From JALXCG01 sp026991065 [NCBI: Gemmatimonadota bacterium] (lineage in GTDB: Bacteria > GCA-2686955): a stretch of DNA of 5,851 nt. Under the pieces are notes generated by a model. It had not been told where the DNA came from and searched no databases. It saw only the letters and a list, made by a program, of their open reading frames with translations. Location: assembly GCA_026991065.1 (NCBI GenBank), contig JALXCG010000453.1:1-5851 (forward strand). The letters are read 5' to 3'. A program made the position numbers and the translations under genes. Below are positions 1 to 5,851 of the stretch, in pieces; positions within the stretch are counted from its first letter, which is position 1, and each line of letters begins with the position of its first letter.

Positions 1-395
1 ACACCCTGAACGCCGCCATCTCGCGCGTGTTTCCCGCAGTCGACCGCAACCACCTGGCGGTCTTCGAGGTGGACCTGCAGAACCCGCCGCGCACCTTCGT
101 CGCCGGCATGACGGTCGCCCTGGATGTCTCCTTTGCCGCCGCCGAAGGACTGTCGGTCCCCGTGGATGCCCTGCTGGAGGGCACCAACGGCAACTGGGTG
201 TTCAAAGTGCAGCAGCAGACCATCCATCCGGTCGCCGTGCAGGTCCTCTCCGCCGGCAGCGACTTTGTCGTCGTCAGCGGTGAACTGAGCACCGGAGACC
301 GCGTTGTGACCGCCCGCCCGTCGCGCCTGATGATGCTGAGTGACGGCCAGCAGGTGCGCCTGGCGACCCCGAACCAAGAGGGAGGCCGGCCATGA
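1..395 (+). CDS. RND efflux membrane-fusion (periplasmic adaptor) protein, C-terminal part
   Basis: The reading frame is open from the left edge (first full codon at base 3), so the true start lies outside the window; the GTG at 27 is internal. The 130 visible residues match the C-terminal beta-barrel and membrane-proximal domains of HlyD/AcrA-type adaptors. The stretch RTFVAGMTVALDV (residues about 36-48) is the usual 'R-x-F-x-x-G-M-x-V' barrel motif. It is followed by 'LSVPVDALLEG', the common 'l-x-VP-x-x-A-l' strand, then VFKV, and then GELSTGDRVV, which corresponds to the family's 'GL-x-x-GD-x-VV'. In this family the protein is periplasmic, anchored to the inner membrane, and couples the RND permease to an outer-membrane channel. 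The stop codon overlaps the permease start as ATGA, which implies translational coupling and a shared transcript. The substrate cannot be inferred. Family assignment is firm; the subfamily is not. Confidence 0.9.
   Translation, partial: TLNAAISRVFPAVDRNHLAVFEVDLQNPPRTFVAGMTVALDVSFAAAEGLSVPVDALLEGTNGNWVFKVQQQTIHPVAVQVLSAGSDFVVVSGELSTGDRVVTARPSRLMMLSDGQQVRLATPNQEGGRP
378..385 (+). promoter_or_regulatory. Ribosome binding site of the RND permease gene
   Basis: GAGGGAGG lies inside the last codons of the adaptor gene, 6 nt before the ATG at 392. It supports this ATG as the permease start and fits coupled translation across the 4-bp overlap. Confidence 0.75.
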
Positions 396-3300
396 GCATC
401 GTTGAATCCTACCTGCGCAAACCCCACCTTCTGATCTCGCTGGTTCTGCTCGCCGCGGTGGTTGGGTTCGTCGGCTTCAAGAAGATGCCGGTGAATCTCT
501 TTCCCGACTCCGAGCGCCCCCAGATCGCGGTGGTGACAGTGTTTCCCGGCGCCTCCTCCGCCGATGTCGAGAGCGATGTTTCCCGCACCATCGAAAAAGA
601 GGTCAACACCATCGACCTGGTGCGGCGGGTGGTTTCGGTCAGCAAGGATGAGGTCTCCGCGGTCACTGTGGAGTTCGAATATGAGAAGGGGCTGGACGCC
701 GCCGCTACCGACGTCGCCAACGCCCTGCAGAAGATCAAGGCGAAACTGCCGCCCAGCATCCGCCCGCCGATGCTCTTCAAGATCTCCTCCGCCACCGGCG
801 CGGTGATGACCCTGGCCCTGACCCCGCATCCAGACTCCCCGCTGGATCTCTCCATGGTCCGCCAGTTGGCCGACAACCAGATCAAAGAGAAGCTCCTGCA
901 GCTACCGGAGGTGGCCAATGTGGAGGTGTTCGGCGCCCACCAGCCGGTGATCCGCGTCGATCTCGATCGCGACCGCCTGGAGCGCAACCACCTGACCGCC
1001 TTGCAGGTGCGCCAGGCGCTCACCGCCTTCAACGCCAACCAACCGATCGGCCTGCTGATCACCGCCGAGAGCCAGTTCCTGGTCAAACGCACCGGCGAGT
1101 TTCAGCGCGTCGCCGAGGTGGGCGCGATACCGGTCGCCAACCGTCCCGGCGGCGCCGTCCACCTGCGCGATGTCGCGACCATCCGTCGCGGCGTCCTGGA
1201 GCCGCAGAGCGCCTATCACGGCAACGGCGCCCCCGCCATCGCCGTCAACATCCAGCGCGCCACCAGCGGCCACGCCCTCAACACCATCGCCGACGTCGCC
1301 GGCTACCTGCCGCAACTCGAGCAACAGTTCCCCGGCATCGACTTCACCATTCCCGACACCCAGGGCGAGCTGATCGAACTCTCGGTCGGCAACATGATCG
1401 ACGCGCTCCGCGACGCGGTGATCATGACCATCATCGTCATCTTTCTTTTCCTCGCCGACCTGCGCGGCATGTTGCTGGCGGCGATCAGCATCCCCTTCAC
1501 CTATCTGCTCACCTTCGCGGCGATGTGGGTGATCGGCTACGAATTCAACATGGTCACTCTGACCGCGATCATCATTGCCGTGGGCATGTTGCTCGACGAT
1601 GCCATCGTGGTGTTGGAAAACATAGAGCGACACTACCGGGAGGTAGCCAAGGATGTCCATGAAGCAGTGGTCGGCGGCACCGAGGAAGTGATGCTGGCGA
1701 TTTTCTCCGGCACCTACGCCACCGCGATGGTGCTGCTACCGATCATCTTCATCGGCGGCTATGTGCAGACAGTCCTGCGCCCGCTTTCGGTCAGCCTGGT
1801 GATCGCCCTGGCCGCATCCTACATCGTCTCGGTTACGGTGATCCCACTGCTCGCTCCGCTTCTGCTGCGGCGCAGTCACGGCGCCCATCGCAACACCCTC
1901 GAACGGATCGTCGGCAAGTTTCAGATCTACATCGTCGATCCGGTGCGCGAGTTCTATGTGCGCCTCACCACTTTCGCCCTGGATCACCGTCTTCCGTTCA
2001 TGGTCGCCGGGGTGATGATGACCATGGTCGCCGGCCGCCAGATGCCGCTGGTGGGCCGCGATCTGATGCCGCCGATGGACACCGGGATCATCAAAGTGGC
2101 CTTTGAAACCGATGCCAACACCTCACTGGCCGAGACCGAGGCAACCCTGAGCAGGATGGAGGAGCTGATCCGGGCGCGGCCCGAGGTAACCTCAGTCTCT
2201 TCGGTGATCGGCTCCGAACCGGCGGTGATCTCCTTCGGCGCCGGCCGCCTGCCGCAACAGGGCACCATCACCATTCACCTGCTGGATCGCTTTCACCGCG
2301 ACGCCTCGATCTGGGAGATCGAGGACGACCTCCGGCAACAGTTCCACACCCTCCCCGGCCTCAAGACCGCCGACGTCTTCGATTTCGGCGCCACCGCCCT
2401 CTCCAGCATCCGAGCCCCGGTCGATGTCATGATCTCCGGTCCCGACACCGCGGTCCTCGACCGCATCGGCAAGGATGTGGAGCAACGCCTGCGCGCCAAT
2501 CTGCACGACATCACTTCGATCTCGCGCAGTTGGTCCCTGGACAACCAGGAGATCACTTTCACCGCCGACCCGGAAAAACTGGCGCTTTACCAACTCTCGC
2601 CGGCGGTGCTGGCCGCGCAGCTCTCCTCTACGGTGCGCGGCATGCCGGGGTCCACTTTCCGCATCCCCAACCAGGATGGCCTGGCGGTGTGGCTCCAACT
2701 GCCGCCCGAGCAGCGTCGCAACATCGGCCAGGTGGCCGACTACAAGATCGCCACCCCCAAGGGAGAGGTCCCGCTCGGTCAGCTCGGAACGATCGGCCGC
2801 CAATGGATCAGCTCCGTGATCACCCGCCAGGGGCTGCAACGCACGCTGGACATTCAGGCCTACCGCGCCAAACGCCCGATCAGCCACATGCAAGAGGATG
2901 TGATGCAGGCGCTGGAGGGGCTGGAACTGCCCGCCGGTTACACCATCAGCCACGAAGGCGACATCAAACAGATGAACGAGTCGTTCGGTCGTCTGGGCGC
3001 CGCCCTGGCGCTCGGTATGTTGCTACTCTATTTCTCCCTGGTGCCGGCTTTCAAATCCTGGATCCACCCGCTGACCATCATGTCGGCGATTCCGTTGGCC
3101 CTGATCGGCGCCGCCTGGAGCATGCTGATCATGAACAAACACGGCTGCATGCCGTCGATGATGGGCATGATCCTGCTGGCCGGAATTGTGGTGAAAAACT
3201 CGATTCTGCTGATCGACTTCATCGCCGCCGCGCGTGACCGTGGCGACACCGTTCACGATGCGCTGATCGGCTCGGTCCGCGTCCGTACCCGCCCGATCCT

Positions 3301-3535
3301 GATGACTGCGGTGGGAACGTCGGTCGGCATGATCCCGATCGCGGCCGAGTGGGCGATCGGCCTGGAGCGTCTCTCACCGCTGGCGGTGGTGGCGATCGGC
3401 GGATTGATGGTCTCCACCTTCCTCACCATGGTCTATGTGCCGATTATCTACTCGCTCTTCGAGGACCTCGAAACAAAAGTGCGGAGCCTGATCGGCCGGA
3501 AGCGACACTTGGCCGAGCCCGGCGTCGCGGTCTGA
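392..3535 (+). CDS. RND efflux pump inner-membrane permease (AcrB/HAE-like)
   Basis: This is a complete 1047-residue protein, the normal length for the AcrB/MdtB superfamily. Such permeases are homotrimers in the inner membrane that use proton influx to export compounds through the adaptor and an outer-membrane channel. The expected twelve-helix layout is visible: TM1 at about 11-29, periplasmic loop 1 at about 34-338, TM2-TM6 at about 340-492, TM7 at about 533-550, periplasmic loop 2 at about 555-866, and TM8-TM12 at about 868-1022. The N-terminal signature 'MPVNLFPDSERP' and 'FPGASSADVE' is typical. Proton-relay residues are present: D402 and D403 in TM4 (GMLLDDAIVVLENIER) and K935 in TM10 (GIVVKNSILLIDF), matching AcrB D407, D408 and K940. 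The double aspartate favours an HAE-type (organic substrate) pump over a CusA/CzcA metal pump. However, 'GRDLMPPMDTG' at 555-565 resembles the 'MPxLDEG' segment of the HME type, so the substrate is left open. The ATG at 392 has a good Shine-Dalgarno sequence and overlaps the adaptor stop. No truncation or frameshift is seen. Confidence 0.96.
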   Translation: MSIVESYLRKPHLLISLVLLAAVVGFVGFKKMPVNLFPDSERPQIAVVTVFPGASSADVESDVSRTIEKEVNTIDLVRRVVSVSKDEVSAVTVEFEYEKGLDAAATDVANALQKIKAKLPPSIRPPMLFKISSATGAVMTLALTPHPDSPLDLSMVRQLADNQIKEKLLQLPEVANVEVFGAHQPVIRVDLDRDRLERNHLTALQVRQALTAFNANQPIGLLITAESQFLVKRTGEFQRVAEVGAIPVANRPGGAVHLRDVATIRRGVLEPQSAYHGNGAPAIAVNIQRATSGHALNTIADVAGYLPQLEQQFPGIDFTIPDTQGELIELSVGNMIDALRDAVIMTIIVIFLFLADLRGMLLAAISIPFTYLLTFAAMWVIGYEFNMVTLTAIIIAVGMLLDDAIVVLENIERHYREVAKDVHEAVVGGTEEVMLAIFSGTYATAMVLLPIIFIGGYVQTVLRPLSVSLVIALAASYIVSVTVIPLLAPLLLRRSHGAHRNTLERIVGKFQIYIVDPVREFYVRLTTFALDHRLPFMVAGVMMTMVAGRQMPLVGRDLMPPMDTGIIKVAFETDANTSLAETEATLSRMEELIRARPEVTSVSSVIGSEPAVISFGAGRLPQQGTITIHLLDRFHRDASIWEIEDDLRQQFHTLPGLKTADVFDFGATALSSIRAPVDVMISGPDTAVLDRIGKDVEQRLRANLHDITSISRSWSLDNQEITFTADPEKLALYQLSPAVLAAQLSSTVRGMPGSTFRIPNQDGLAVWLQLPPEQRRNIGQVADYKIATPKGEVPLGQLGTIGRQWISSVITRQGLQRTLDIQAYRAKRPISHMQEDVMQALEGLELPAGYTISHEGDIKQMNESFGRLGAALALGMLLLYFSLVPAFKSWIHPLTIMSAIPLALIGAAWSMLIMNKHGCMPSMMGMILLAGIVVKNSILLIDFIAAARDRGDTVHDALIGSVRVRTRPILMTAVGTSVGMIPIAAEWAIGLERLSPLAVVAIGGLMVSTFLTMVYVPIIYSLFEDLETKVRSLIGRKRHLAEPGVAV

Positions 3536-4007: not shown

Positions 4008-5177
4008 TTAGTTGTTGCGCAGAAAAACGGTCATGGTGCCGTCACCGGAGTTGCCCACCACCACATCGAGCGTGCCGTTGCCGTCCAGATCACCGCTCGC
4101 CAGCGACGTGGGGTCCGCCCCGACCGGCACGGCATAACGCTTGCTGCCGATGCCGCCCGCGCCATCATTGACCAGCCAGTTCACCACCGAACCGTAGTAG
4201 GTGGGAACCAGCAGATCGGCGTCGCTGTCGCCATCGACATCGGCGAAGCCGAGCGTGGTTGCCGGTTGGTCGAAAAGATAGGTGGAAGCGGCGGAGGAGT
4301 AGGCGCCGGAGTCGTTCAGGAAGAGTTCGACCACGTCGTTCAGCCCGGAACCCACCGCCAGATCGATCGCGCCATCGCCGTCGACATCGCCGAAAGCGAG
4401 TGTGGTGGGGCGCAGGTAGGCGGATTGGACCGCAGCCTGGGAGAAGAAACCGTCGCCGAGGTTGGTCAGGATCTTCACGCCATATTTGTAGGAAACAGCG
4501 AGATCGGGGGCGCCGTCGCCGTTCACATCGCCGCTGATCACCTCACGCGGGTATTTGCCGATGTAGTTGTTGCGCGGCGCGCCGAAGCTGCCGTCGCCGG
4601 CGTTGACCAGCACCGAAAGATTGGAGTCGAAATAGTTGGCGGTCATCAGATCGGCGTCGCCGTCATCATCAATGTCGGCCACCGCCAGGTCGAAGGGGTT
4701 GTAGCCGGTTTCGAAGAGGGTCTCGGCGCCGAACGTAGCATCCCCATTGTTGGGGACCACCGCGACATAGCTCTGCAGGTAGACCCCATCCACTGCCGCC
4801 GCGATGTCGATGTCACCATCGCCGTCGAAATCCGCCGCCGCGATCGCCGCGGGACGACTGCTCAGTGCGTAGAAGGCGCTTGTGCCGAAGCTGCCGCTGC
4901 CATCATTCAGTGAGACCGTGAAGCCGATCCCCTGCCAGGTCTGCGCCGCGGCATTGAACTGGCCGCGGGCGGCGGCGGCCAGGTCCAGGTCGCCATCACC
5001 GTCGAGATCGGCCAGGGTCACCGTGGCGGGGGCGGAGCTGAGTTCGTAGGAGGAGCGGCTGAAGGGGCGGCTGAATGCGGCCGTGGCGCCGGCCACTTCC
5101 AGAACGGCCAGGGCCAGGGGGAGCGTGTGAGAGAGAGTCAGTCTTCGGTTCCTGCTTCCGCGTTGGAGTGTGCGCAA
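4008..5177 (-). CDS. Secreted FG-GAP/VCBS-repeat beta-propeller protein
   Basis: From the TTG at 5177 the product is 389 residues. The N-terminus is arginine-rich (MRTLQRGSRNRR) followed by a hydrophobic core, LPLALAVLEVAGATAA, with likely Sec cleavage near residue 34; the mature chain is therefore exported. Seven calcium-loop motifs of the D-x-D-G-D/N-G-x-x-D type start at about residues 57, 116, 168, 217, 264, 313 and 363. Their spacing is 47-59 residues, and each is followed by hydrophobic segments such as DLAAA or DLAV. This is the FG-GAP/VCBS pattern of integrin-alpha-like propellers, and seven copies fit one complete seven-bladed propeller. No catalytic, sorting or anchoring domain is seen. 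The last blade ends naturally in VFLRNN before the TAA. The family is extracytoplasmic and often has binding roles; no specific ligand can be given. The TTG at 5246 would also be in frame but would place 23 non-signal-like residues before the signal peptide. The TTG at 5177 has AAAGGAA 7 nt upstream. The nearby ATG at 5194 is out of frame. Confidence 0.85.
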   Translation of the reverse strand: MRTLQRGSRNRRLTLSHTLPLALAVLEVAGATAAFSRPFSRSSYELSSAPATVTLADLDGDGDLDLAAAARGQFNAAAQTWQGIGFTVSLNDGSGSFGTSAFYALSSRPAAIAAADFDGDGDIDIAAAVDGVYLQSYVAVVPNNGDATFGAETLFETGYNPFDLAVADIDDDGDADLMTANYFDSNLSVLVNAGDGSFGAPRNNYIGKYPREVISGDVNGDGAPDLAVSYKYGVKILTNLGDGFFSQAAVQSAYLRPTTLAFGDVDGDGAIDLAVGSGLNDVVELFLNDSGAYSSAASTYLFDQPATTLGFADVDGDSDADLLVPTYYGSVVNWLVNDGAGGIGSKRYAVPVGADPTSLASGDLDGNGTLDVVVGNSGDGTMTVFLRNN

Positions 5178-5184
5178 AGCGGTG

Positions 5185-5191
5185 TTCCTTT
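5185..5191 (-). promoter_or_regulatory. Ribosome binding site supporting the TTG start at 5177
   Basis: On the minus strand AAAGGAA lies 7 nt before the TTG at 5177, directly ahead of the arginine-rich n-region of the signal peptide. It is what decides this start over the TTG at 5246. A competing GGGGAG a few nt before the out-of-frame ATG at 5194 is at least as strong. Confidence 0.5.
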
Positions 5192-5210
5192 CATGGCGTC
5201 TCCCCGGGGT

Positions 5211-5224
5211 GCTCCGCGCGGAGC
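5211..5224. repeat. 14-bp perfect palindrome in the FG-GAP gene leader
   Basis: GCTCCGCGCGGAGC is identical to its own reverse complement. The flanking GGGG and CCCC can lengthen the hairpin with a 2-nt bulge. It lies about 35 nt upstream of the TTG start, within the predicted 5' leader, so it could be a protein-binding site or a leader hairpin. No regulator is recognised. Confidence 0.45.
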
Positions 5225-5278
5225 CCCAACCGTTGTTCAAGAGCAATGGGTTGAAAACACGGCACCGGCCTGCCGCGG

Positions 5279-5369: not shown

Positions 5370-5851
5370 TCACCCCAGCAGATCCATGAACCCCGGGTCC
5401 GCGCGCAGGCGCGCCTGCAACTCCCGAATCAGCCGCGCCACGCGGAAATAGCCGACCGCGCCCCAGGTCACCATCACCACACTGCCGCAGATCAGGAGAC
5501 CATCGAAGAGACTCCACCAGGAGAGACCGAAGTAGCGCAGAAAACCGATTCCGAGCGACAGAAACGCCAGACCGGTGCGGATCAAAGCGAGAAAAGTGCG
5601 CTCCCGCGCCAGTTCCGTGCGCTCCATCGAGAGCCGCGTACGGGTCACCGCGCGCCGGGTTCGGCGATCGGCCAGGTCGGTGCGCTTCCCCGCCAGATCG
5701 GTCCGTTCACCCGCCAGGTCGGTCCGCCGTTCCGCCAGTTCGGTGCGCTTCCCCGCCAGATCGGTCCGTTCACCCGCCAGGTCGGTCCGCCGTTCCGCCA
5801 GTTCGGTGCGCTCGCCCGCCAGATCGGTGCGGCTCGATGCCAGCTCGGTGC
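5370..5851 (-). CDS. DUF202-like small membrane protein with N-terminal heptad-repeat region, 5' end outside window
   Basis: The frame is open from the right edge (first full codon at 5849) to the TGA at 5370-5372, giving 159 visible residues. The C-terminal part matches the DUF202 (YidH-like) family: the signature 'TELARERTFLALIRTGLAF' is followed by a first membrane helix through LSLGIGFLRYFG. A second helix (LLICGSVVMVTWGAVGYF) and a basic/amphipathic tail with RVARLIRELQARLR follow. DUF202 proteins are small inner-membrane proteins of unknown function. Ahead of the domain are about nine clean heptads of the form T-D/E-L-A-x-x-R and two degenerate ones, with no stop and in exact seven-residue register with the signature. 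Internal GTG (5648) and ATG (5627) codons could start a bare DUF202 protein. The uninterrupted, codon-consistent repeats upstream argue that the gene begins beyond the window. The charged repeat region is predicted to be cytoplasmic and helical. The FG-GAP gene follows 192 bp downstream on the same strand. Confidence 0.75.
   Translation of the reverse strand, partial: TELASSRTDLAGERTELAERRTDLAGERTDLAGKRTELAERRTDLAGERTDLAGKRTDLADRRTRRAVTRTRLSMERTELARERTFLALIRTGLAFLSLGIGFLRYFGLSWWSLFDGLLICGSVVMVTWGAVGYFRVARLIRELQARLRADPGFMDLLG
5661..5849 (-). repeat. In-frame 21-bp tandem repeats (nine heptads), with a 63-bp higher-order unit
   Basis: Nine consecutive 21-bp units encode T-D/E-L-A-x-x-R heptads. 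The order from the right edge is TELASSR, TDLAGER, TELAERR, TDLAGER, TDLAGKR, TELAERR, TDLAGER, TDLAGKR, TDLADRR. A three-heptad unit is repeated exactly: bases 5681-5743 and 5744-5806 are identical over 63 bp, and the match extends a few bases on either side. The first copy at the edge is partial, so the array probably continues outside the window. Base-level identity between the 63-bp copies points to recent duplication. Confidence 0.9.

Follow-up and report, generated by a model that had tools for sequence, protein, structure and literature searches.

Heptad Arrays in Exact Phase with the DUF202 Membrane Domain Are a Conserved Extension of the Family Signature

Introduction

The DUF202 family (PF02656) is little described in the literature that we searched, and no paper there held DUF202 together with "coiled" (both as whole words). 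An excerpt of PMC5767969 places the domain in the fungal vacuolar transporter chaperones. For yeast VTC, the excerpted structural account (PMC9911596) describes a channel that is formed by five TM1 helices and lined by K24 and R31 of Vtc1 and by K622 and R629 of Vtc4, each pair being seven residues apart. The narrowest ring of this channel is made up of R31, R709 and R629, while the pore basics of Vtc3 are found at 694, 698, 705 and 709, so that the seven-residue step is not kept there (PMC9911596).

Here we describe DUF202 proteins with a long rod. They share with the rest of the family the TxLAxxR signature, the signature Arg, a basic end of TM1 and a Pfam match over the cut-off. However, ordinary members carry about three heptads, compared with 18–44 in the complete relatives of our protein. 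The rod is a real, phase-locked and conserved extension of DUF202.

Results and Discussion

The window, by which we mean the whole stretch of DNA analysed, is one entire contig of 5851 bases (G000:C453). Its right end holds only the 3′ part of a DUF202 rod protein gene (5370..5849, minus strand), an open frame with 159 visible residues whose 5′ end is cut by the contig edge, where the frame is still open. The relatives L004–L009 align over the complete visible length. A reading-frame error was considered and rejected, the minus-strand frame being fixed by the relatives. Pfam detects the DUF202 domain at 5433..5621 on the minus strand (residues 77–139 of the visible protein, 36 bits versus a cut-off of 23.4, E=9.6e-9). 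At least 13 TxLAxxR heptads (5577..5849, minus) run in phase and unbroken into TM1; 13 is a minimum because the contig ends inside the repeat. Counting back from RTG, we saw no phase change over these heptads, and 12 of the 13 fit all four residue classes (T/S/N at position 1, L-like at 3, A-like at 4, R/K at 7). When the same residues were shuffled and scored at all seven offsets, the best of 20,000 shuffles gave 2 full matches versus the 12 observed, which excludes a chance origin of the pattern. The initial annotation had described upstream heptads that share the TxLAxxR pattern of the DUF202 signature and keep its register, and this array in exact phase with the DUF202 membrane domain is confirmed as a real observation.

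A 63-bp unit, equal to three heptads, is repeated 2.5 times at 5671..5828 (minus; 96% matches by Tandem Repeats Finder), which shows that duplication has recently occurred in part of the array. It is plausible that these near-identical repeats are the reason why the contig breaks at this point. Towards the C-terminus we find two juxtamembrane heptads, TRRAVTR and TRLSMER (5619..5660, minus), then the end of TM1 with the loop RYFGLSWW (5514..5537, minus) and finally, transferred by alignment from the AlphaFold2 model of L004, a predicted second membrane helix with the helix that follows it (5400..5513, minus). The window additionally contains, downstream of the rod gene, a gene for an FG-GAP repeat protein (4008–5246, minus; PF13517, E=1.6e-40). 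An RND efflux permease-like gene (392–3535, plus) has strong NCBIfam subfamily matches that stay below their cut-offs, and the open frame before it (3–395) looks by eye like the end of an adaptor.

Seven ordinary DUF202 proteins were counted, and six of these contain three heptads and one contains four. Intermediate arrays were also detected, with five heptads in MshEN-DUF202 proteins (four domains in G093) and about 10–11 in two plasmid proteins. Because ordinary members have about three heptads and such intermediates exist, the array and the DUF202 signature are the same repeat, in line with the earlier proposal that the array is an expansion of the signature motif. The MshEN-DUF202 proteins (G093, and G1034 by sequence resemblance) are similar to the rods in that about five heptads precede each DUF202 domain, but they differ in having several DUF202 domains per protein and an MshEN domain (Pfam on two G093 proteins). 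MshEN is a c-di-GMP receptor. The proteins at L011 and L023 (G093:C6) and at L077 and L079 (G1034:C1) show two or three DUF202 domains, with about 4–5 heptads before each, and an N-terminal MshEN, which was assigned by Pfam in the G093 pair only. The plasmid proteins WP_225907736.1 (Leptolyngbya) and WP_037145520.1 (Neorhizobium) have their 10–11 heptads in register with DUF202. Unlike the rods, the Leptolyngbya protein carries a fused sodium/bile-acid symporter domain. In the Neorhizobium protein the repeat reads TxLSxxR, a hint that this array grew separately. Plasmid DUF202 genes lie at L086:4959–6401 and L087:5019–5666, and DUF1622 and arylsulfatase genes are present in both neighbourhoods.

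The rod design is common to a few distantly related bacteria. A scan of genome contigs furnished six relatives among 314 pattern matches, namely four Acidobacteria, one Aminicenantes and one Myxococcales record. The profile survey of 396 genomes from the phylum of the L004 genome (E<=1e-10) matched 13, of which nine span array and DUF202; since five of these nine carriers were already known beforehand, the survey gives no prevalence estimate. The four array-only matches (G280, G397, G416, G491) were excluded from the rods by profile span. Among 377 genomes from the phylum of the L009 genome, 11 matched, three with a long array and DUF202 (one already known). The other eight (G555, G639, G695, G701, G729, G786, G841, G864) are array-only matches excluded by the same profile span. 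Individual reading covered some of the array-only matches of the two surveys, L047, L050 and L063 not being among those read; in G701 (L061) we counted about six heptads by eye. Across the window's domain, four of 386 genomes matched at E<=1e-12: that of the window, one further rod (G1030) and two with MshEN-type proteins (G093, G1034). Within the window's own phylum, one of two genomes matched the profile. The DUF202 family itself is widespread, 13 of 98 sampled genomes having a Pfam match over the cut-off; the window protein and L004, L045, L056 and L057 are likewise over the cut-off. We also considered a phage origin and rejected it: none of the 13 pattern matches in viral contigs was a relative, and phage records furnished only a tail fibre that is 31% identical across the array (Proteus phage PM135, in two records). 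Among the PHROGs, L004 matched a minor head protein (E=2.3e-7) and a tape-measure protein (2.3e-4), neither of them DUF202, and we tentatively read these matches as coiled-coil resemblance.

For the analysis of complete arrays we used 13 relatives (L004–L009, L043–L046, L056, L057, L076), which include the near-identical pairs L005/L008 and L007/L043. The alignment has 13 rows with 12 of these relatives in it; L076 stands outside and is similar by eye, with about 20 heptads. In the 12 aligned relatives, in-register counts reach from 18 to 44 when counted leniently and from 16 to 35 when strictly contiguous heptads are counted, and the longest array is that of L056:778–2112 (G495), with 44 in-register heptads (lenient count). 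All net indels in these arrays are multiples of seven. Indeed, the distance from the distal QTRLS-type motif to the membrane RTG, which amounts to 16 to 35 heptads, is at phase 0 modulo 7 in all 12, as is expected of a heptad coiled coil. A comparison of heptad counts across relatives had been suggested as a check, and it yields 18–44 heptads with the exact seven-residue phase kept. Array and membrane domain had furthermore been taken as parts of one gene, and in the 13 complete relatives the array is nowhere interrupted by a stop or a start of its own. Proline is absent from the 13 arrays scanned (the L006 array read in part).

The conservation is unevenly distributed along the protein. For eight non-redundant clade members we obtained 0.49 for the N-terminus, 0.88 for the distal cap, 0.60 for the middle, 0.84 for the juxtamembrane stretch (a mean majority identity of 84%) and 0.82 for TM1 and the loop, which gives two peaks, at the distal cap and the juxtamembrane stretch, around a variable middle. 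At the level of single positions, 252 heptads of 11 sequences contain T (87%) at position 1, L (73%) or M (13%) at 3, A (73%) or S (19%) at 4 and R (89%) at 7, percentages that are somewhat inflated, since the heptads were picked by these same residue classes. Two cap heptads deviate from this pattern. The ten kinase-linked relatives carry first Q or M and then S or A in place of Arg, and L056, L057 and L076 have Q and then N or S where Arg is usual. The two juxtamembrane heptads TRRAVTR and TRLSMER had been regarded as a degenerate bridge, but instead they are strongly conserved. The 12 aligned relatives mostly read TxRAxTR-TRLSxxR, and six residues do not vary in any of the 13 rows: A and the final R in the first heptad, and T, L, S and R in the second. 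The Arg of RYFGLSWW (R235 in L004), which follows the Arg of IRTG by 14 residues, is also invariant in 13 of 13 rows.

Structure prediction of a full chain, likewise proposed earlier, was performed with AlphaFold2 on L004 as a single chain with the alignment of 13 rows. The model draws the array and TM1 as one continuous helix (residues 10–237), followed by a second helix (243–280), with a pLDDT of 92–97 over residues 61–180 and 79–88 over residues 181–240 and a pTM of 0.35. AlphaFold2 draws long helices readily for sequences of this sort. The two helices would be compatible with two membrane helices after the signature. An 84-residue model gave a pLDDT of only 69.6. With the rise of an alpha-helix of 0.15 nm per residue, 18–44 heptads would correspond to a rod of about 19–46 nm.

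The initial annotation had placed L and A on one helix face, with acidic and basic side chains alternating. This picture needs correcting. By hand geometry, the near-invariant R and also T join L and A on this face, and position 2, where acidic residues are most frequent (48% of the 252 heptads), is on the other side of the helix. Acidic and basic residues are mixed at positions 2, 5 and 6. The residues i±3/4 from the Arg, which occupy positions 3 and 4, are acidic in a fraction of 0.00 and 0.01 of 252 heptads. The near-invariant Arg is therefore without a conserved acidic partner in its own helix. The idea of a rod held together by salt bridges is thus not supported as stated, since the Arg has almost no acidic i±3/4 residue; for the same reason, salt bridges could form only via the variable outer positions or with other chains. 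The top PDB match of the rod profile is a designed alpha-helical barrel with Leu at d and Ala at e (8qae, sc-apCC-6-SLLA). The match is weak (E=0.012), and the barrel differs from the rods in being designed, antiparallel and six-helix and in having Leu in place of the rod Arg.

In 10 of 13 complete loci, the immediate upstream neighbour of the rod gene, on its own strand, is a cytidylate-kinase-like gene (8 of 11 with near-identical pairs counted once). All five of the encoded proteins that were scanned are over the cut-off for PF13189. Their C-terminus is BON-like, below the Pfam cut-off in all five, and its profile matches OsmY in the PDB (E=6.2e-7). On reading, the nucleotide loop is without the usual GK[ST], and we refer to the protein as a putative kinase. 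The gene is absent from L056 (on a 12-kb contig), L057 and L076. Because these three loci keep the distal cap, the cap is not specific to the kinase-like partner. Close relatives of a histidine kinase and a response regulator flank the rod/kinase-like pair in 4 of 13 loci (L092–L095), with several of the neighbourhood regions being short or ending at contig edges; L097 and L098 contain more distant histidine kinase matches, which are situated 6.5 kb upstream and immediately adjacent on the opposite strand. In the window, the gene upstream of the rod lies off the contig. The missing 5′ part of the rod gene was not found elsewhere in the same genome by profile search (one match only), and neither of the two PF13189 matches in this genome is next to a rod. 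On another contig of this genome, a paralogue of the kinase-like gene directly follows a response regulator gene. A further kinase-like paralogue, at L005:802–2310, has a C-terminus that by eye looks membrane-spanning, as if the kinase were fused to an anchor.

The observed array, its phase, the conservation pattern and the gene order are in our view best explained, with a probability of about 50%, by a DUF202 protein with a parallel oligomeric coiled-coil stalk, which extends the basic face of the bundle into the cytoplasm and whose distal cap holds a partner. The short helix before TM1 would have been lengthened by whole heptads, giving the one continuous cytoplasmic helix that a single model predicts. 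Copies may stand side by side in the membrane, by analogy with the helices of the yeast VTC pentamer, and their rods would pack in parallel into a left-handed coiled coil whose inner face is made up of T, L, A and R. The cap would hold something, the variable middle would set the distance, and the conserved base would join the membrane bundle. For the main clade, we regard the cytidylate-kinase-like protein of the next upstream gene as the likely partner, which may dock onto the cap; a two-component system sometimes joins this pair and could point to a role in signalling. Against the stalk, an Arg in a coiled-coil core is unusual unless it is neutralised. Additionally, the cap is kept in the 3 of 13 loci that have no kinase-like gene, and the BON matches are below the Pfam cut-off.

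A tentative alternative, which we consider possible but not probable, is that the inward Arg ladder forms a tube-like extension of an anion pore, through which polyphosphate or another polyanion is guided between a cytoplasmic enzyme and the DUF202 channel. The VTC channel is built, according to the excerpt of PMC9911596, from TM1 helices with basic residues seven residues apart, but the pore basics of Vtc3 depart from this step. Of the VTC membrane domain (Vtc1, Vtc3, Vtc4), the Vtc1 chains are the four best PDB matches of the DUF202 profile, which aligns ANERT with the heptad Arg at the pore-lining R31 of Vtc1 (8i6v_A). This match is weak, the E-values of 0.047–0.1 being not significant alone, and Foldseek lists VTC chains among its best matches at E 0.58–1.1 with none under 0.001. 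The residue 14 after the Arg of [xR]T is basic in all 13 rods and in seven of the eight ordinary DUF202 proteins examined, which together with an Arg at position 7 in 89% of heptads, having no conserved acidic i±3/4 partner, would suit a basic conduit. However, in the rod proteins that were scanned Pfam detects neither an SPX nor a VTC polymerase domain, the neighbourhoods having been searched for kinase-like, histidine kinase, response regulator and rod relatives, and the upstream protein is kinase-like and no known polyphosphate polymerase. VTC, in contrast, is eukaryotic, has no long array and works with SPX and polymerase domains in its partners. The conduit is a bolder reading than the stalk. 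In its full form, a bacterial VTC-like pore whose Arg ladder was extended by 19–46 nm through whole-heptad duplication would be a length-tunable tube for polyanion delivery between the kinase-like enzyme and the membrane, which we regard as doubtful.

A monomeric single alpha-helix, acting as a stiff charged spacer without a partner helix, is unlikely. The sequence is indeed helix-rich, charged and proline-free, with its acidic/basic mix at positions 2, 5 and 6, but a lone helix needs neither the conserved T-L-A-R face nor an exact phase over 18–44 repeats. Lone-helix proteins are usually without a conserved hydrophobic strip. We give still less credence to an amphipathic helix that lies flat on the membrane surface. 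Every heptad is amphipathic and the helix adjoins the membrane domain, but at 3.6 residues per turn the conserved face circles the helix about once per 18 heptads (hand geometry), and because this face winds round a straight helix, 18–44 heptads could not lie flat on it. Neutral slippage of a GC-rich 21-bp unit, leaving an array without selected function, would fit the recent 63-bp duplications in the window and the six frames that are open over long parts of the repeat, but is hardly credible and already disfavoured by the conservation, as phase, Arg and cap are kept in relatives with diverged DNA.

Conclusion

In summary, DUF202 proteins provide a natural series of 3 to 44 heptads, in phase with an Arg that a weak match aligns with the pore Arg of yeast VTC, and this series offers a handle on the role of the DUF202 signature. 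The rods would represent a case in which a membrane bundle is lengthened by copying its own entry motif.
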